Positions 14,892-21,809 of a stretch of 64,000 nucleotides of DNA are shown piece by piece. Within the stretch, counting starts at the first letter, position 1. Every line of letters begins with the position of its first letter. The stretch comes from Methylothermaceae bacterium. GTDB lineage: Bacteria; Pseudomonadota; Gammaproteobacteria; Methylococcales; Methylothermaceae. Made by a program: the position numbers and the translations under genes. The DNA is taken from the NCBI GenBank assembly GCA_026981855.1, contig JALSIB010000029.1, positions 124,001-188,000 on the forward strand, in the 5' to 3' direction. Below the pieces are notes generated by a model. It was given only the letters and a program-made list of their open reading frames with translations. It had not been told where the DNA came from and made no database searches.

Positions 14892-16895
14892 ATGATCTAT
14901 AGAAAGTTTTTCCTCCTGACCTTGATTTTGATTCTGGCCACCCTGGCGCTGGGGATTTACGTTCGTGCCAGTGGTGGCGGGCTGGCTTGTCCGGATGCGC
15001 CTGCCTGTTTTGGTTCCTGGTGGCCCCCCGAGTCACTGCCCGGCGATGTGCTGAAACAGTATCCCGGGCATTTCTACGATTCCAGCGCCGCGAGGCTGCA
15101 GATGGGGCACCGCTTGCTGGGGGCGGCGACCGGCATCATCCTGGTGGGACTGTTTCTCGCTTCCTGGTGGCAGCGCCGCAGGCTTGTCGCCACAGGCGCG
15201 AGTGCCGTGTTGTTGCTTTTTTGGGGCGTGCAGACGGGATTGGGTGTCATGGTCGTCCACAGTCACCTCATGCCGCTGCTGGTGCTTGCCCACTGGCTGG
15301 TGGCAGTGTCGATGGCCGTGGTCGCCTGGAAAGCGTATTTGCGCCTTTCGCCCGCCGAGTGGGTGACATACACTCATACTGCAGGGTTGCGCAGGCTGGC
15401 GGTTGCCGCCGGATGGCTGATCTTTCTGCAAATGCTCCTGGGGGTGTGGGTGGGCGCCAACTTTGCCGGTCTGTCCTGCCCCGATTTTCCTACCTGTCAT
15501 GGGCAATGGCTGCCGCAAGTGGACTGGGGGGCGTTCGATCCGGCCAGGCTGGGCCTGACCGGCTGGGCGCTTCCCGACCAGGAAGCCAAGATGTTCCTGC
15601 ACTGGCTACACCGGGTCGGGGCGTTGTCGTCTTTTTTGATTTTGTTCCTGCTCGGGATTTCCATCAGTTCCAATCCCAGGGTTCCTCACCTCAGTAAGGG
15701 CGGATTGCTGCTGAATTTCTTGCTGTTGGTGGTGATCGGCCTGGGATTGTCGCTGGTGATCAAGGAGGCGCCACCGGTACTGGTCATGGCGCATGGCGTG
15801 ACGGCCGTGATCATTTTGTTGGTGGTGACCGGTGTGGCCGCGTTTCTGCGTCAAGGGCCGCCGCTTGAGTTGCCGGCAAAGGAGACGGCCGGCGTGCCTG
15901 CGGAAAAGGCGCCGCCTTCGCCAGTCAGGGAAGTCCCGGCCGGGCCCGTCGATCTCTATGCCCGGCTGTCCCAACAATTGGGCAAGACCCGTTCGGGGTT
16001 GACGGGATTCCTCGCTTCCCTGCCCCTTGCGGGAAGGACGCTCGACCAGGAGACGCTCGAAGAGATCGAGACCCATCTGCTGATGGCGGACGTGGGTGTC
16101 GATGCGACCCGGCAGATCATAGACCGCCTGACATCCAGGTTGGCGCGCCACCAGCTTCAGGATGCCGGTGAGGTGATGCGGGCATTGCACGATACCTTGC
16201 TGGAAATTCTGGCGCCCTGCAGCGAGCCGTTGAAAATCGATGCCTCCCAACGGCCGTTTGTGATTCTGGTGGTGGGGGTCAATGGTGTCGGCAAGACCAC
16301 CACCATAGGAAAATTGGCCAAACGACTGCAGAATCAGGGGCACAGTGTCATGCTCGCGGCGGGCGACACCTTCAGAGCGGCAGCGGTGGACCAGCTCAAG
16401 GTATGGGGCGAGCGCAACGGCGTGCCCGTGGTGGCGCAGGAAACCGGCGCCGATTCTGCATCGGTGATTTTCGACGCCTTTCAGGCGGCCAAGGCGAGGG
16501 GAATCAACGTGCTCATCGCCGATACGGCCGGGCGTTTGCATACCAAATCCAACCTGATGGAAGAGCTGGCCAAGATCAAACGCATCATGGCCAAACTGGA
16601 TCCCACCGCCCCCCATGAAGTGCTGTTGGTGCTCGATTCGACCACTGGCCAGAACGCTCTGTCCCAGACCGAACAGTTCAATCAGGCTGTCGGCGTGAGC
16701 GGAATCGTCCTGACCAAACTCGATGGTACTGCGAAAGGGGGCGTCATCTTCGCCCTGGCCAAACGATATGGTATTCCCATCCGTTACATCGGTATTGGAG
16801 AAGGGGTGGACGATTTGCAGGACTTCGATGCCCGGGCGTTTGTCGATGCGTTGTTTGCCGGGCAAAAGGCCATGGAAACCCCGACACTGCATTAG
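14892..16895 (+). CDS. ctaA-ftsY: heme A synthase fused to SRP receptor GTPase (CtaA-FtsY fusion)
   Basis: One uninterrupted 667-residue frame. Residues 1-320 are heme A synthase (COX15/CtaA): eight membrane helices, paired cysteines C33/C39 and C196/C202, and heme-ligand histidines in GHFYD, MGHR, VHSH, LAHW, FLHWLHR and MAHG. Residues 321-352 form a Pro/Glu/Ala-rich linker. Residues 353-667 are the FtsY NG domain: N-domain LYARLSQQLGKTRSGL, P-loop GVNGVGKT (462-469), DTFRAAAVDQ, DTAGR (544-548) and TKLDGTAKGG. The usual acidic A domain of FtsY is missing, and the CtaA helices would tether FtsY to the membrane instead. The gene lies where the cox cluster (ctaA) meets the ftsYEX cluster, so fusion could follow loss of the ctaA stop. 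A GTG at 15894 with its own ribosome site could give free FtsY. Confidence 0.93.
   Translation: MIYRKFFLLTLILILATLALGIYVRASGGGLACPDAPACFGSWWPPESLPGDVLKQYPGHFYDSSAARLQMGHRLLGAATGIILVGLFLASWWQRRRLVATGASAVLLLFWGVQTGLGVMVVHSHLMPLLVLAHWLVAVSMAVVAWKAYLRLSPAEWVTYTHTAGLRRLAVAAGWLIFLQMLLGVWVGANFAGLSCPDFPTCHGQWLPQVDWGAFDPARLGLTGWALPDQEAKMFLHWLHRVGALSSFLILFLLGISISSNPRVPHLSKGGLLLNFLLLVVIGLGLSLVIKEAPPVLVMAHGVTAVIILLVVTGVAAFLRQGPPLELPAKETAGVPAEKAPPSPVREVPAGPVDLYARLSQQLGKTRSGLTGFLASLPLAGRTLDQETLEEIETHLLMADVGVDATRQIIDRLTSRLARHQLQDAGEVMRALHDTLLEILAPCSEPLKIDASQRPFVILVVGVNGVGKTTTIGKLAKRLQNQGHSVMLAAGDTFRAAAVDQLKVWGERNGVPVVAQETGADSASVIFDAFQAAKARGINVLIADTAGRLHTKSNLMEELAKIKRIMAKLDPTAPHEVLLVLDSTTGQNALSQTEQFNQAVGVSGIVLTKLDGTAKGGVIFALAKRYGIPIRYIGIGEGVDDLQDFDARAFVDALFAGQKAMETPTLH
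15878..15896 (+). promoter_or_regulatory. internal ribosome site and GTG start for a free FtsY form
   Basis: AAAGGAG at 15878-15884 stands 9 bases before an in-frame GTG (15894-15896, codon 335 of the fusion), right at the junction of the two domains. Initiation here would make a 333-residue FtsY without the membrane part. This is inferred from spacing and sequence only. Confidence 0.5.
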
Positions 16896-16906: not shown

Positions 16907-17560
16907 GTGTTGCAGTTCGATCAGGTCACCAAGTCCTATCCGGGGAGCGGTGATGTCCTCAGAGGTGTCAGCTTCCAGATAGAGCGGGGGGAAATGGTCT
17001 TTGTTTCGGGTCATTCGGGCGCCGGCAAGAGCACCCTGCTTCGCTTGACGGCTTTGATGGAACGTCCCACCCGGGGCGCGATTCTTCTCAATGGACAAAA
17101 CGTGGGCCGTCTGCCCAATCGCAAGATACCCTTCGTCCGGCGCCGTCTTGGGCTGATATTCCAGGATTATCGGCTGATTCATGACCGGACCGTCTACGAT
17201 AACGTGGCGATGCCCTTGTTGATTGCGGGCTTCGGCCCGGAAGAGACGGACCATCGCACCCGCGCGGCGCTCAACAAGGTCGGGCTGGCGGGGTTCGAGC
17301 GGCGCTATCCGGTCACTCTGTCCGGCGGCGAGCAGCAACGGGTGGGAATCGCCCGCGCCATCGTCACCCGGCCGCCCATGATTCTCGCCGATGAACCCAC
17401 CGGGAATCTCGATCCGGATTTGTCGCTGGAAATCATGGCGATGTTTCGTGAATTCAACCAGGTGGGGGTGACCATGTTGATCGTCAGTCACGACCAGGCG
17501 CTGGTTTCCCGATTTGCCGGCCGGGTGCTGCATCTGGAGCGGGGGCGGCTGGTGGAATGA
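16907..17560 (+). CDS. ftsE: cell division ATP-binding protein FtsE
   Basis: The ABC ATPase of the FtsEX complex, which activates periplasmic amidases during septation. It has 217 residues. Walker A is GHSGAGKST (about 35-43), the Q-loop is IFQDYRLI, the signature is LSGGEQQRV, Walker B is [14 protein letters not shown], and the switch His is in VSHD. It starts with GTG at 16907, 11 bases after the ctaA-ftsY stop, and overlaps ftsX by 4 bases, giving the standard ftsY-ftsE-ftsX order. Confidence 0.95.
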
Positions 17561-18510
17561 GGGCCGGAAAAGACGCTGGCGGCCGGCTGAGGGGGCGGGC
17601 GAGGACTTTTCTGCGGCTGCACGGCCATGCCCTGTTTTCCAGCCTTGGAGATTTGTGGCGTGCCCCTTTGATGACCTGCATGACCTTGATGGTCATTGCC
17701 GTCACCCTGGCCTTGCCCCTGACTTTCTATCTCACCCTGGCCAATCTGCAACGGCTGAGCGGGGGGCTGGAGGAAAGTTGGAAGGTTTCTCTCTATCTCG
17801 ACCCGAAGCTGGATGAAAAACAAGCTGCGCCTTTGTTGGCGCGCCTGAGAAAACAGCCGGCGGTGGCTGCTGTCCATCTGATCGGCAAGGAAGCGGGACT
17901 AATGGATTTCCGGCGCCACAGTGGTTTTGGTGAAGTGCTTGAGGCATTGCCGGAAAACCCGCTGCCGGTGGTCATTGAAGTCACACCCCATCCCCGGTGG
18001 GAAAATCCGCAGCGCCTGGCGGAATTGGTGGCGGCCTGGGAAAAGATTCCGCAGGTCGATTTCGTGCAGTGGAACATGCGCTGGCTGCAGCGGCTCAAGG
18101 GCTGGCTGCAACTGGCGGAGCGTGGCGTGGCCGGCCTTGGCGCATTGCTGAGCCTGACGGTATTGCTGGTGGTGGGCAACACCATTCGTCTGGAACTGGA
18201 AAACCGTCATGAGGAAATCGAGGTGATGAAACTGCTGGGCGCGACCCACCGCTTCATTCGCCGGCCGTTCATCTATTCCGGTTTCTGGTATGGCTCGACA
18301 GGCGGCCTGATGGCCCTGATTCTGGCTTGGCTGTTGAGCGCCGTGATGCGGGCGCCTGCCAAATCCCTGGCAGCCCTGTATGGCGCCGCGTTCGATATCG
18401 AATTCCTTTCCCTTCCTGAAGTGCTGGCTTTTGCCGGTTTCTCCGTGGTTTTGGGTGTCTCGGGTGCGTGGCTGGTGGTCACGCGCCATCTTTGGCGGCT
18501 TCGCATATAA
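17557..18510 (+). CDS. ftsX: cell division protein FtsX
   Basis: The membrane partner of FtsE. It has 317 residues: a cytoplasmic N-terminal stretch, a first helix (about 45-70), a periplasmic domain of about 100 residues that contacts amidase activators, then three C-terminal helices. Family motifs include WRAPLMTCMTLMVIAVTLALP, LENRHEEIEVMKLLGAT and FIRRPF near the second helix. The ATG overlaps the ftsE stop. Confidence 0.94.
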   Translation: MRAGKDAGGRLRGRARTFLRLHGHALFSSLGDLWRAPLMTCMTLMVIAVTLALPLTFYLTLANLQRLSGGLEESWKVSLYLDPKLDEKQAAPLLARLRKQPAVAAVHLIGKEAGLMDFRRHSGFGEVLEALPENPLPVVIEVTPHPRWENPQRLAELVAAWEKIPQVDFVQWNMRWLQRLKGWLQLAERGVAGLGALLSLTVLLVVGNTIRLELENRHEEIEVMKLLGATHRFIRRPFIYSGFWYGSTGGLMALILAWLLSAVMRAPAKSLAALYGAAFDIEFLSLPEVLAFAGFSVVLGVSGAWLVVTRHLWRLRI

Positions 18511-18697: not shown

Positions 18698-18791
18698 TTA
18701 TTGTTTTAACTCAAAACAATAACCATGAAAATATTATGGTTTTTGTTTTGAGTCAAAACTATTACCATAAAATTAATATGGTTTTTTGATC
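18698..18791. repeat. AT-rich tandem dyads upstream of pmoC
   Basis: Two copies of a dyad ACCAT-N9-ATGGT lie at 18722-18740 and 18764-18782, exactly 42 bases apart (four helical turns). The first is the core of an 18-base inverted repeat, ACTCAAAACAATAACCAT (18709-18726) against 18736-18753, with one mismatch. Two further palindromes overlap it: TTATTGTTTT-AACTC-AAAACAATAA (18698-18722) and GTTTTGAGTCAAAAC (18746-18760). The layout suggests a cooperative repressor or activator site for pmoC. Confidence 0.75.
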
Positions 18792-18827
18792 CAGATCAAA
18801 TATCGGGCTGGAGGGCTGCTATAGAAT
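18786..18827 (+). promoter_or_regulatory. pmoC promoter with FNR/Anr-type box
   Basis: TTGATCCAGATCAA at 18786-18799 is a perfect FNR-type palindrome (TTGAT-N4-ATCAA). Downstream lie TATAGA (18820-18825, with an extended TG) and TAGAAT (18822-18827) as -10 candidates. The box centre would be about 40-42 bases before the start of transcription, the class II activator position, and no normal -35 element is present. A CRP/FNR-family regulator is therefore likely. Confidence 0.65.
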
Positions 18828-18869
18828 CTTGCCCGCGTTGTGCACTAACGAGATGTTAAGGAGGAATAA

Positions 18870-19691
18870 ATGGCAACAACGAGTCAGAGTGTGTCTGCTA
18901 AAGAGGTTGAGAAACCTTTGGTGGCGACACGTGGTTTGATTGGGGGTATTGGAGGTTTGACGCTTCTGTACTCATGGGTGCGCTGGTATGAAGGTGTCTA
19001 TGGCTGGTCGGCCGGTTTGGATGCGTTTGCTCCGGAGTTCGAAACCTACTGGATGAATTTCCTGTATACCGAAATTCTGGTGGAGGTTTTGGTGGCGGCT
19101 GCCTTGTGGGGGTATTTGTGGAGAACCCGGCCCAAGGATCTCAGCAAATTGACTCCCAGAGAGGAGTTGCGGAATGGATTTACCTTGATTGTATGGCTGT
19201 GCTGCTATGCATGGGCCGTATACTGGGGCGCCAGCTACTTTACCGAGCAGGATGGAACCTGGCATCAGACGATTGTTCGTGACACGGACTTCACGCCGAG
19301 TCACATCGTTGAGTTCTATGGAGCGTATCCTGTGTACATTATCATCGGGTTCGCCTCGTACATTTATGCGCATACCCGCCTGCCTTATTTCGATTATTCG
19401 AAAAGAGGGCTGTCCCTGGCGTTCACGCTGTTCGTGATCGGTCCTTTCATGATCGTGCCCAATGTGGGGCTGAATGAATGGGGACACACTTTCTGGTTCA
19501 TGGAGGAGTTGTTTGTGGCGCCTCTCCATTACGGGTTTGTGTTCTTCGGATGGTTTACGCTGGGTGTGTTGGGCGTGCTCCTTCAAAGCTTGGCTTGCTT
19601 TGCCAACTTGATTGGTAAAGAGCTTTGCGGTGATGTTTACGATCAGGCCGTTGCCCGGGTTGGTGCCGACCAGGCCACCTGGATGGACTGA
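18870..19691 (+). CDS. pmoC: particulate methane monooxygenase subunit C (solitary copy)
   Basis: The membrane subunit of pMMO (or an ammonia monooxygenase-family relative), which oxidises methane to methanol. It has 273 residues and about six or seven membrane helices. The variable metal-site ligands are present: D128, H132 (DGTWH) and H145 (TPSH). These match M. capsulatus D156, H160 and H173 with a constant offset of 28. The conserved block LNEWGHTFWFMEELFVAPLH follows. A full-strength TAAGGAGG lies at 18857-18864. No pmoA or pmoB is adjacent, and a terminator follows directly, so this is a monocistronic extra copy. It splits the ftsX-rpoH neighbourhood, and its codon use is visibly more AT-rich than its neighbours. 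It could work with PmoAB encoded elsewhere or under special conditions. Confidence 0.96.
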   Translation: MATTSQSVSAKEVEKPLVATRGLIGGIGGLTLLYSWVRWYEGVYGWSAGLDAFAPEFETYWMNFLYTEILVEVLVAAALWGYLWRTRPKDLSKLTPREELRNGFTLIVWLCCYAWAVYWGASYFTEQDGTWHQTIVRDTDFTPSHIVEFYGAYPVYIIIGFASYIYAHTRLPYFDYSKRGLSLAFTLFVIGPFMIVPNVGLNEWGHTFWFMEELFVAPLHYGFVFFGWFTLGVLGVLLQSLACFANLIGKELCGDVYDQAVARVGADQATWMD

Positions 19692-19793: not shown

Positions 19794-19821
19794 AACCGCC
19801 CTGCCCGGGCGGTTTTTTTTT
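19794..19821 (+). terminator. second terminator between pmoC and rpoH
   Basis: Stem AACCGCCC / GGGCGGTT with a 5-base loop and a run of nine T. It may be a back-up terminator isolating rpoH from pmoC. In the original ftsX-rpoH arrangement it may have ended the ftsX transcript. Confidence 0.85.
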
Positions 19822-19845: not shown

Positions 19846-19872
19846 TTGGCACTCTAAGACACAGAGTGCTAA
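19846..19872 (+). promoter_or_regulatory. CIRCE element (HrcA operator) upstream of rpoH
   Basis: TTGGCACTC-N9-GAGTGCTAA differs at one base from the CIRCE consensus TTAGCACTC-N9-GAGTGCTAA, with exactly nine bases between the arms. TTGGCA (19846-19851) and TAATCT (19870-19875) within it could be the -35 and -10 elements, so bound HrcA would block the promoter directly. Confidence 0.85.
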
Positions 19873-19903: not shown

Positions 19904-20770
19904 ATGAGCAACGTATTGGCAATTCCGGAAGTCGGCAAGTCGATCAGTTCAGTCAATCAATATATCGCCGTCGTCAATCGGTTTCCACGCCTCGATACCG
20001 AGGAAGAACGTACGCTGGCGCTGCGTTTGCACCGGGAAAACGATCTGGAAGCGGCGAAAAAATTGATTTTGGCCAATTTGCGCTTCGTGGTGCCGATCGC
20101 CCGGGGATATCTGGGATATGGGCTGCCGCTGGCCGACCTGATCCAGGAAGGCAATATCGGTTTGATGAAGGCGGTCAAACGCTTCGATCCTTCCGTCGGC
20201 GTGCGCTTGATCTCGTTTGCCGTCCATTGGATTCGCGCCGAAATTCACGAATTCATTCTCCGCAACTGGCGGATCGTGAAGGTGGCCACCACCAAGGCAC
20301 AGCGCAAACTGTTTTTCAATTTGCGCAAGGCGAAAAAACGACTCAACTGGCTCAGCCAGAACGAAGCCGAAGCGCTTGCCAGCGATCTCGGCGTGAAGGT
20401 GGAAACCGTTCGGGAGATGGAAAAGCGGATGAACGGAAGCGATATGGCATTCGACCCGGCGGTGGGAGAAGAGGCGGAAGCAGATCACCACTTGGCGCCG
20501 GCCCATTACCTCAGCGGCGAGGTGGAAAACGATCCCGCCTATCAGCTAGAGCGGAATGAATGGAGCCGTCTCGAACATGCGCAATTGTCGCGGGCGTTGG
20601 CCGGTCTCGACGAAAGGAGCCGCGATATCCTGCGATCCCGCTGGCTGGAAGAGAAGAAAATGACGTTGCACCAGCTGGCGGAGAAATACGGAGTTTCGGC
20701 AGAGCGGATTCGTCAGCTGGAAAAGAGCGCCTTGAAAAAGCTCAAGAAAGCCATGTCTGAAGTCGCCTGA
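19904..20770 (+). CDS. rpoH: RNA polymerase heat-shock sigma factor RpoH (sigma-32)
   Basis: Directs RNA polymerase to heat-shock promoters. It has 288 residues: region 2 with NLRFVVPIARGYLGYGLPLADLIQEGN, the RpoH box QRKLFFNLRK (which distinguishes it from RpoD and RpoS), and region 4.2 YGVSAERIRQLEKSALKKLK. The start is ATG at 19904 after AAGGGGGATGG; the open frame upstream crosses the CIRCE element and is not coding. In related bacteria rpoH directly follows ftsX; here pmoC is between them. Confidence 0.95.
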   Translation: MSNVLAIPEVGKSISSVNQYIAVVNRFPRLDTEEERTLALRLHRENDLEAAKKLILANLRFVVPIARGYLGYGLPLADLIQEGNIGLMKAVKRFDPSVGVRLISFAVHWIRAEIHEFILRNWRIVKVATTKAQRKLFFNLRKAKKRLNWLSQNEAEALASDLGVKVETVREMEKRMNGSDMAFDPAVGEEAEADHHLAPAHYLSGEVENDPAYQLERNEWSRLEHAQLSRALAGLDERSRDILRSRWLEEKKMTLHQLAEKYGVSAERIRQLEKSALKKLKKAMSEVA

Positions 20771-21736: not shown

Positions 21737-21809
21737 AGATACCTGGCGAATCGTTTACAATGAAACAATTCATTTTATACTAAATCCATCGGAATTTACG
21801 GGACGGTTT

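Follow-up and report, generated by a model that had tools for sequence, protein, structure and literature searches.

Between ftsX and rpoH in the Methylothermaceae genome analyzed here lies a lone pmoC whose promoter probably carries a class II activator site for an FNR-type regulator; this dedicated orphan copy evolved separately and would be switched on at low O2. Of the pmoC copies, the one at the ftsX-rpoH place is, by its promoter architecture, probably the one turned on when O2 is low, so that one class of orphan pmoC gains a specific predicted regulator, signal and set of partner genes. The window (the whole 64,000-nucleotide stretch of DNA that was analyzed) and one further contig contain the features listed here; B denotes the palindrome AACCAT-N9-ATGGTT.

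17557..18510, + strand: ftsX (PF18075/PF02687; synteny), upstream neighbor that defines the conserved place
18698..18781, + strand: tandem 42-bp repeat; its two units, 81% identical, contain both the B palindromes and those of the GTTTTGAnTCAAAAC type
18721..18741, + strand: B palindrome copy 1, AACCATGAAAATATTATGGTT, center ~-103
18763..18783, + strand: B palindrome copy 2, TACCATAAAATTAATATGGTT, center ~-61; matched by a similar palindrome at this position in G005 and by a degenerate one in G001 and G009
18786..18799, + strand: FNR-type box, TTGATCCAGATCAA, a TTGAT-N4-ATCAA dyad, predicted center -41.5; position shared with G005, G001 and G009
18822..18827, + strand: -10 hexamer TAGAAT, 36 nt past the box start, without a matching -35; predicted +1 ~18834
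18858-18864, + strand: ribosome-binding site AAGGAGG of pmoC
18870..19691, + strand: lone pmoC, 273 amino acids, AmoC family (PF04896, E 4e-113), in a distinct PmoC clade (tree)
19795..19821, + strand: intrinsic-terminator-like hairpin after pmoC, ACCGCCCtgccCGGGCGGTTTTTTTTT, read from the sequence and absent from the terminator-scan list
19904..20770, + strand: rpoH, sigma-32 type (Sigma70_r2/r4), with ATG at 19904 and a TTG ORF start at 19820; neighbor outside the switch
L200 (G000:C43), 21748-21761, - strand: FNR box of the candidate small RNA upstream of nqrA

Promoter of the lone pmoC

As the initial annotation had claimed, a perfect TTGAT-N4-ATCAA box precedes pmoC; it is the sole perfect one of the window, and the 42-bp segment running from it through the -10 hexamer (TTGATCCAGATCAAATATCGGGCTGGAGGGCTGCTATAGAAT, 18786-18827) likewise occurs once there. 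By itself the box is weak evidence, and it is the comparison among genomes that gives it strength. A box is expected in ~0.2% of 200-bp upstream regions at this composition, four further sites in the window match with one mismatch (a number equaled by 3 of 100 shuffles), and the genome contains 12 perfect boxes versus none with a reversed-pattern control. These counts were not relied on, because several of the 12 are inside ORFs and one box is repeated inside pqqB in four genomes.

TAGAAT was chosen over an overlapping -10 candidate for its hexamer offset, which is common to all four orthologues. With TAGAAT as the -10, transcription would start near 18834 and the box would be centered at -41.5, the class II position and within the 40 to 42 bases proposed earlier. 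The promoter scan reported no ordinary sigma-70 -35/-10 pair at the box and -10, which bears out the earlier reading that a normal -35 is lacking. The promoter thus shows the marks of class II: the dyad, a predicted -41.5 center with fixed -10 spacing, and no consensus -35. A possible sigma-54 promoter (GG-N10-GC at 18806-18819) was set aside because it is not conserved in the orthologues. Rfam matched no known RNA at the box-bearing promoters considered here.

Conservation and specificity

The order ftsX-pmoC-rpoH found in the window's genome (G000, 2.75 Mb) also occurs in three other genomes of the genus: a Methylothermaceae MAG (G005), G001, taken as Methylomarinovum caldicuralii IT-9, and G009, taken as M. 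tepidoasis IN45 (PMC10950024). All 4 of these intact loci carry an FNR-type box 76.5-78.5 bp before the ATG (TTGATGTTGATCAA in G005, TTGATCTGGGTCAA in G001 and TTGATCTAGGTCAA in G009), and in 4 of 4 a TAnnnT hexamer (TAGAAT, TACCCT, TAGATT or TAATCT) starts exactly 36 nt past the box start, although the flanks, the N4, the intervening bases and the distance to the ATG all differ. TAnnnT occupies 2.6% of positions there. For independent sequences, one shared offset in all four would arise by chance at ~4e-7, but the four are not fully independent. The G005 hexamer (TACCCT) is a poor -10. In G006, pmoC at the ftsX-rpoH place has decayed to a ~24-codon fragment (L123, G006:C153) and the box is broken.

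The box is not a general pmoC trait, a notion rejected once the other pmoC upstream regions proved to be without it. The pmoCAB operons of the genus have no box and instead show CTTGACA-N17-TAGACT-type promoters, the second orphan pmoC likewise lacks one in G001, G009 and G002, and of 79 upstream regions of pmoC taken from other genomes 78 have no perfect box, the exception being the orthologue in L015.

The pmoC locus and its product

The lone PmoC scores over the NCBIfam TIGR03078 cut-off and keeps the metal-ligand motifs TDFTPSH, NEWGH and APLHYGF. In the tree, PmoC proteins of the ftsX-rpoH place form their own clade (support 100/99), an addition to the initial annotation; their identity to the relatives' operon PmoC is mostly 70-82%, and the second orphan PmoC shares 97-98% identity with the PmoC encoded in its own genome's operon. 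Because a hairpin follows pmoC and rpoH starts at 19904 with a CIRCE-type repeat of its own, the pmoC between ftsX and rpoH probably forms a separate, monocistronic transcript. That inverted repeat (TTGGCACTC-N9-GAGTGCTAA, window 19846-19872) has a similar counterpart before rpoH in G006 and suggests HrcA control of the heat-shock sigma factor gene. No pmoA and only one pmoC were found in the window's own assembly. We did not take this pmoA absence as real, since it probably reflects the collapse of near-identical copies during assembly; relatives with complete genomes have two operons.

Shared regulon and candidate small RNA

A search of six genomes for the box followed by N21-22 and TAnnnT returned 18 matches versus 1 for the reversed control. 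Those in the window's genome precede pmoC, bacteriohemerythrin, narK, a candidate small RNA 5' of nqrA, a 53-amino-acid membrane protein and one doubtful place, with 35-36 nt from box start to -10 in the promoters other than that of pmoC. Bacteriohemerythrin genes were located via the protein and not via the box, and in all 8 of the 8 genomes carrying one the upstream region contains an FNR-type box whose -10 lies at 35-36 nt (the G004 box has two mismatches). Downstream of narK come narG (TIGR01580, 2077 bits) and ORFs readable as narH, narJ and narI. The search for the same box before other low-O2 genes, proposed earlier as a check, thus led to bacteriohemerythrin and narK-narGHJI. The methanotroph bacteriohemerythrin gene bhr is strongly induced in hypoxia (PMC12607906), and in Escherichia coli, where 19 of 23 FNR-activated promoters with a known start have their site at -41.5 +/-4, narK, narGHJI and the small RNA fnrS are class II targets (PMC3688515). 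Together, the shared box and -10 spacing define a predicted low-oxygen regulon that is coherent.

The predicted transcript 5' of nqrA, ~92-95 nt long, is found in G000, G001, G002, G005 and G006 (L200, L192, L193, L167 and L195) and has a terminator, an anti-Shine-Dalgarno CCTCCTT and a nearly invariant core, TTTCAGCCATTTATCCTCTGGGAAGGG. In a post hoc comparison with 90 background leaders, which gave -17 +/- 4 kcal/mol, this core was predicted to pair at -30 to -33 kcal/mol with the second orphan pmoC of G001 and G009 in its start region; it pairs neither with the rpoH-linked pmoC nor clearly with operon pmoC. The pairing with the second orphan's leader is only a lead. It bears on a rather unlikely scheme in which O2 would control a swap of pMMO subunits: the FNR-type regulator would raise the PmoC isoform and bacteriohemerythrin, while an FNR-driven small RNA would pair with the start region of another pmoC copy and lower its translation, so that PmoAB would receive the low-O2 PmoC.

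The 53-58-amino-acid single-helix membrane protein (MAEEKEKDYFW...; L225 ~1696-1857 in G000:C45, and L190 in G006:C1) has an FNR-type class II promoter, and no family match was found for it. Elsewhere, at L186 (G001:C1:276427) and L196 (G009:C1:390935), an FNR box with TATAAT is followed ~110 nt on by a terminator-like hairpin, possibly a second FNR-driven small RNA in Methylomarinovum.

FNR-type regulator

The genome encodes one FNR-type protein (240 amino acids, L126:1412-2134), the kind of homologue whose absence, according to the initial annotation, would tell against its proposal. It aligns over nearly its full length with solved FNR and has all four cluster cysteines (C-X2-C-X5-C, plus SYC aligned with VC of solved FNR), which are also present in the genus relatives covering those regions; FNR-type relatives occur throughout the genus. 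Its recognition helix (LALATVSR) has Ala at the position of Glu-209 in E. coli FNR (VETISR), a major contact to the box (PMC4505428). Every genus homologue covering the region (L174-L181) likewise reads A-xx-SR rather than E-xx-SR, with Ser and Arg kept. At 210.4 bits the protein misses the NCBIfam PRK11161 Fnr cut-off of 228, yet this is by far its best model. We therefore call it FNR-type, not FNR, since the recognition-helix Glu is absent and the cut-off is missed. The 20 regulon sites read TTGAy-c-t/c-g/a-G-r-TCAA, which the pmoC box fits fully; despite what the helix and the score show, the DNA motif is thus FNR-like in practice.

Under the class II activator reading, the single four-cysteine regulator would hold a [4Fe-4S] cluster at low O2 and dimerize. 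Bound to TTGATCCAGATCAA at -41.5, the dimer would bring sigma-70 polymerase to TAGAAT. The product, a PmoC isoform, could then join PmoA and PmoB. Alternatively, an FNR-type protein might bind the box while the signal is NO or nitrate respiration, not low O2, with the B palindrome as a nitrate- or NO-responsive site. The same promoter type before narK-narGHJI and the presence of a second conserved palindrome fit this, but we hold it to be improbable, as only the FNR-type regulator and one CRP were found in the genome, with no DNR or NNR. In addition, M. caldicuralii has neither denitrification genes nor hemerythrin (PMC10950024), and G001, taken as its strain IT-9, keeps the pmoC box nevertheless, an observation that speaks against the NO/nitrate signal and also weighs against the reading we prefer. 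Other points weighing against the latter are the recognition-helix Ala, the missed Fnr cut-off, the poor G005 -10 and the conserved B palindrome.

Besides the FNR-type protein, the matches in the genome comprised that CRP (over the NCBI CRP cut-off) and one weak ArsR-type match; no second FNR-, DNR- or NNR-like protein was found there. Accordingly, of the O2- or NO-sensing CRP/FNR-family activator first suggested, the family member gains support from the single protein with four cysteines, and a separate NO-sensing DNR does not.

Second palindrome

A second conserved palindrome, AACCAT-N9-ATGGTT, stands 5' of the pmoC box and was not part of the initial annotation. In the tandem repeat, palindromes of the two kinds (GTTTTGAnTCAAAAC and ACCAT..ATGGT) alternate with centers ~21 bp apart; the tandem form was observed in the window's genome alone, with no such repeat found in the relatives. 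The GTTTTGAnTCAAAAC palindromes were considered as weak FNR sites and discarded, their TTGA/TCAA half-sites being 1 bp apart, not 6, and hence not those of FNR dimers. Near-perfect A/T-rich B sequences occur at only three places in G000, two at pmoC and one at the promoter of the small membrane protein. G005 has one, at pmoC; of the two in G006, one is at the membrane protein promoter and the other at the decayed pmoC place. B resembles an operator used by a second regulator of narrow scope, and its conservation suggests that FNR is not the sole input. Added to the class II activator scheme, such a regulator, bound at ~-61 (and ~-103), would tune output.

It is quite improbable that the B regulator acts as the main switch, with the FNR-type site as a helper and some other main signal such as copper or membrane stress. 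The restriction of near-perfect B sites in G000 to pmoC (two) and the membrane protein promoter, and the persistence of a B-like sequence at the decayed G006 place, would suit such a switch, whereas B is degenerate in G001 and G009 while the FNR box and its spacing are intact, and -41.5 is the standard activator position. Very improbable indeed is a repressor site or chance match with pmoC transcribed from another promoter: FNR boxes do arise by chance, as the intragenic ones attest, but position and spacing are conserved in four genomes, the scan reports no other sigma-70-like promoter on the + strand between box and pmoC, and the promoter shares its regulon with low-O2 genes.

Relation to known systems

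The proposed promoter resembles E. coli FNR class II promoters (narGHJI, narK, fnrS) in having TTGATN4ATCAA near -41.5 and a -10 without a good -35, and the regulon resembles that of E. coli in including narK and a small RNA (PMC3688515). Unlike in E. coli, the target here is a methane monooxygenase subunit, an extra AACCAT-N9-ATGGTT lies upstream, and the recognition helix has Ala. Like the orphan pmoC of Methylococcus capsulatus (pmoC3), Methylohalobius crimeensis and M. tepidoasis (two orphans each in the latter two), the rpoH-linked copy is outside pmoCAB and keeps the metal-ligand motifs; unlike them, it belongs to its own clade. Orphan pmoC copies have been counted previously (PMC10950024, PMC4463540), and the explanations proposed for them extend from neutral duplication to a part in pMMO activation (PMC4688376). 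In the open-access literature, we found no report tying FNR to pmoC or orphan pmoC control and none assigning an O2 regulator to an orphan pmoC.

Methylacidiphilum fumariolicum SolV likewise uses different pMMO gene sets at high versus low O2, although there whole pmoCAB operons switch and the excerpted account names no regulator (PMC3404531), whereas here a single subunit gene has an FNR-type site. Nitrosomonas europaea amoC3 is also a divergent lone C-subunit gene that lies apart from the operon and is regulated separately. It reportedly belongs to a sigma-E-type stress response, and its regulator and signal differ from those proposed here. The reading we favor would tie methane oxidation to an O2 sensor and bears on aerobic methanotroph life in hypoxic water and at vents; the genus has two cultured relatives with complete genomes.

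Additional observations

At the decayed pmoC place of G006 (L123), the upstream palindrome and a terminator-like hairpin are still there. G001 has a partial second rpoH copy between ftsX and pmoC (L131 5740-5958), as might follow from a rearrangement of the pmoC-rpoH segment. Finally, window 14892-16895 contains an apparent ctaA-ftsY fusion, a 667-amino-acid ORF with a CtaA/COX15 domain at residues 5-312 and an FtsY-like SRP54 GTPase at 381-655.
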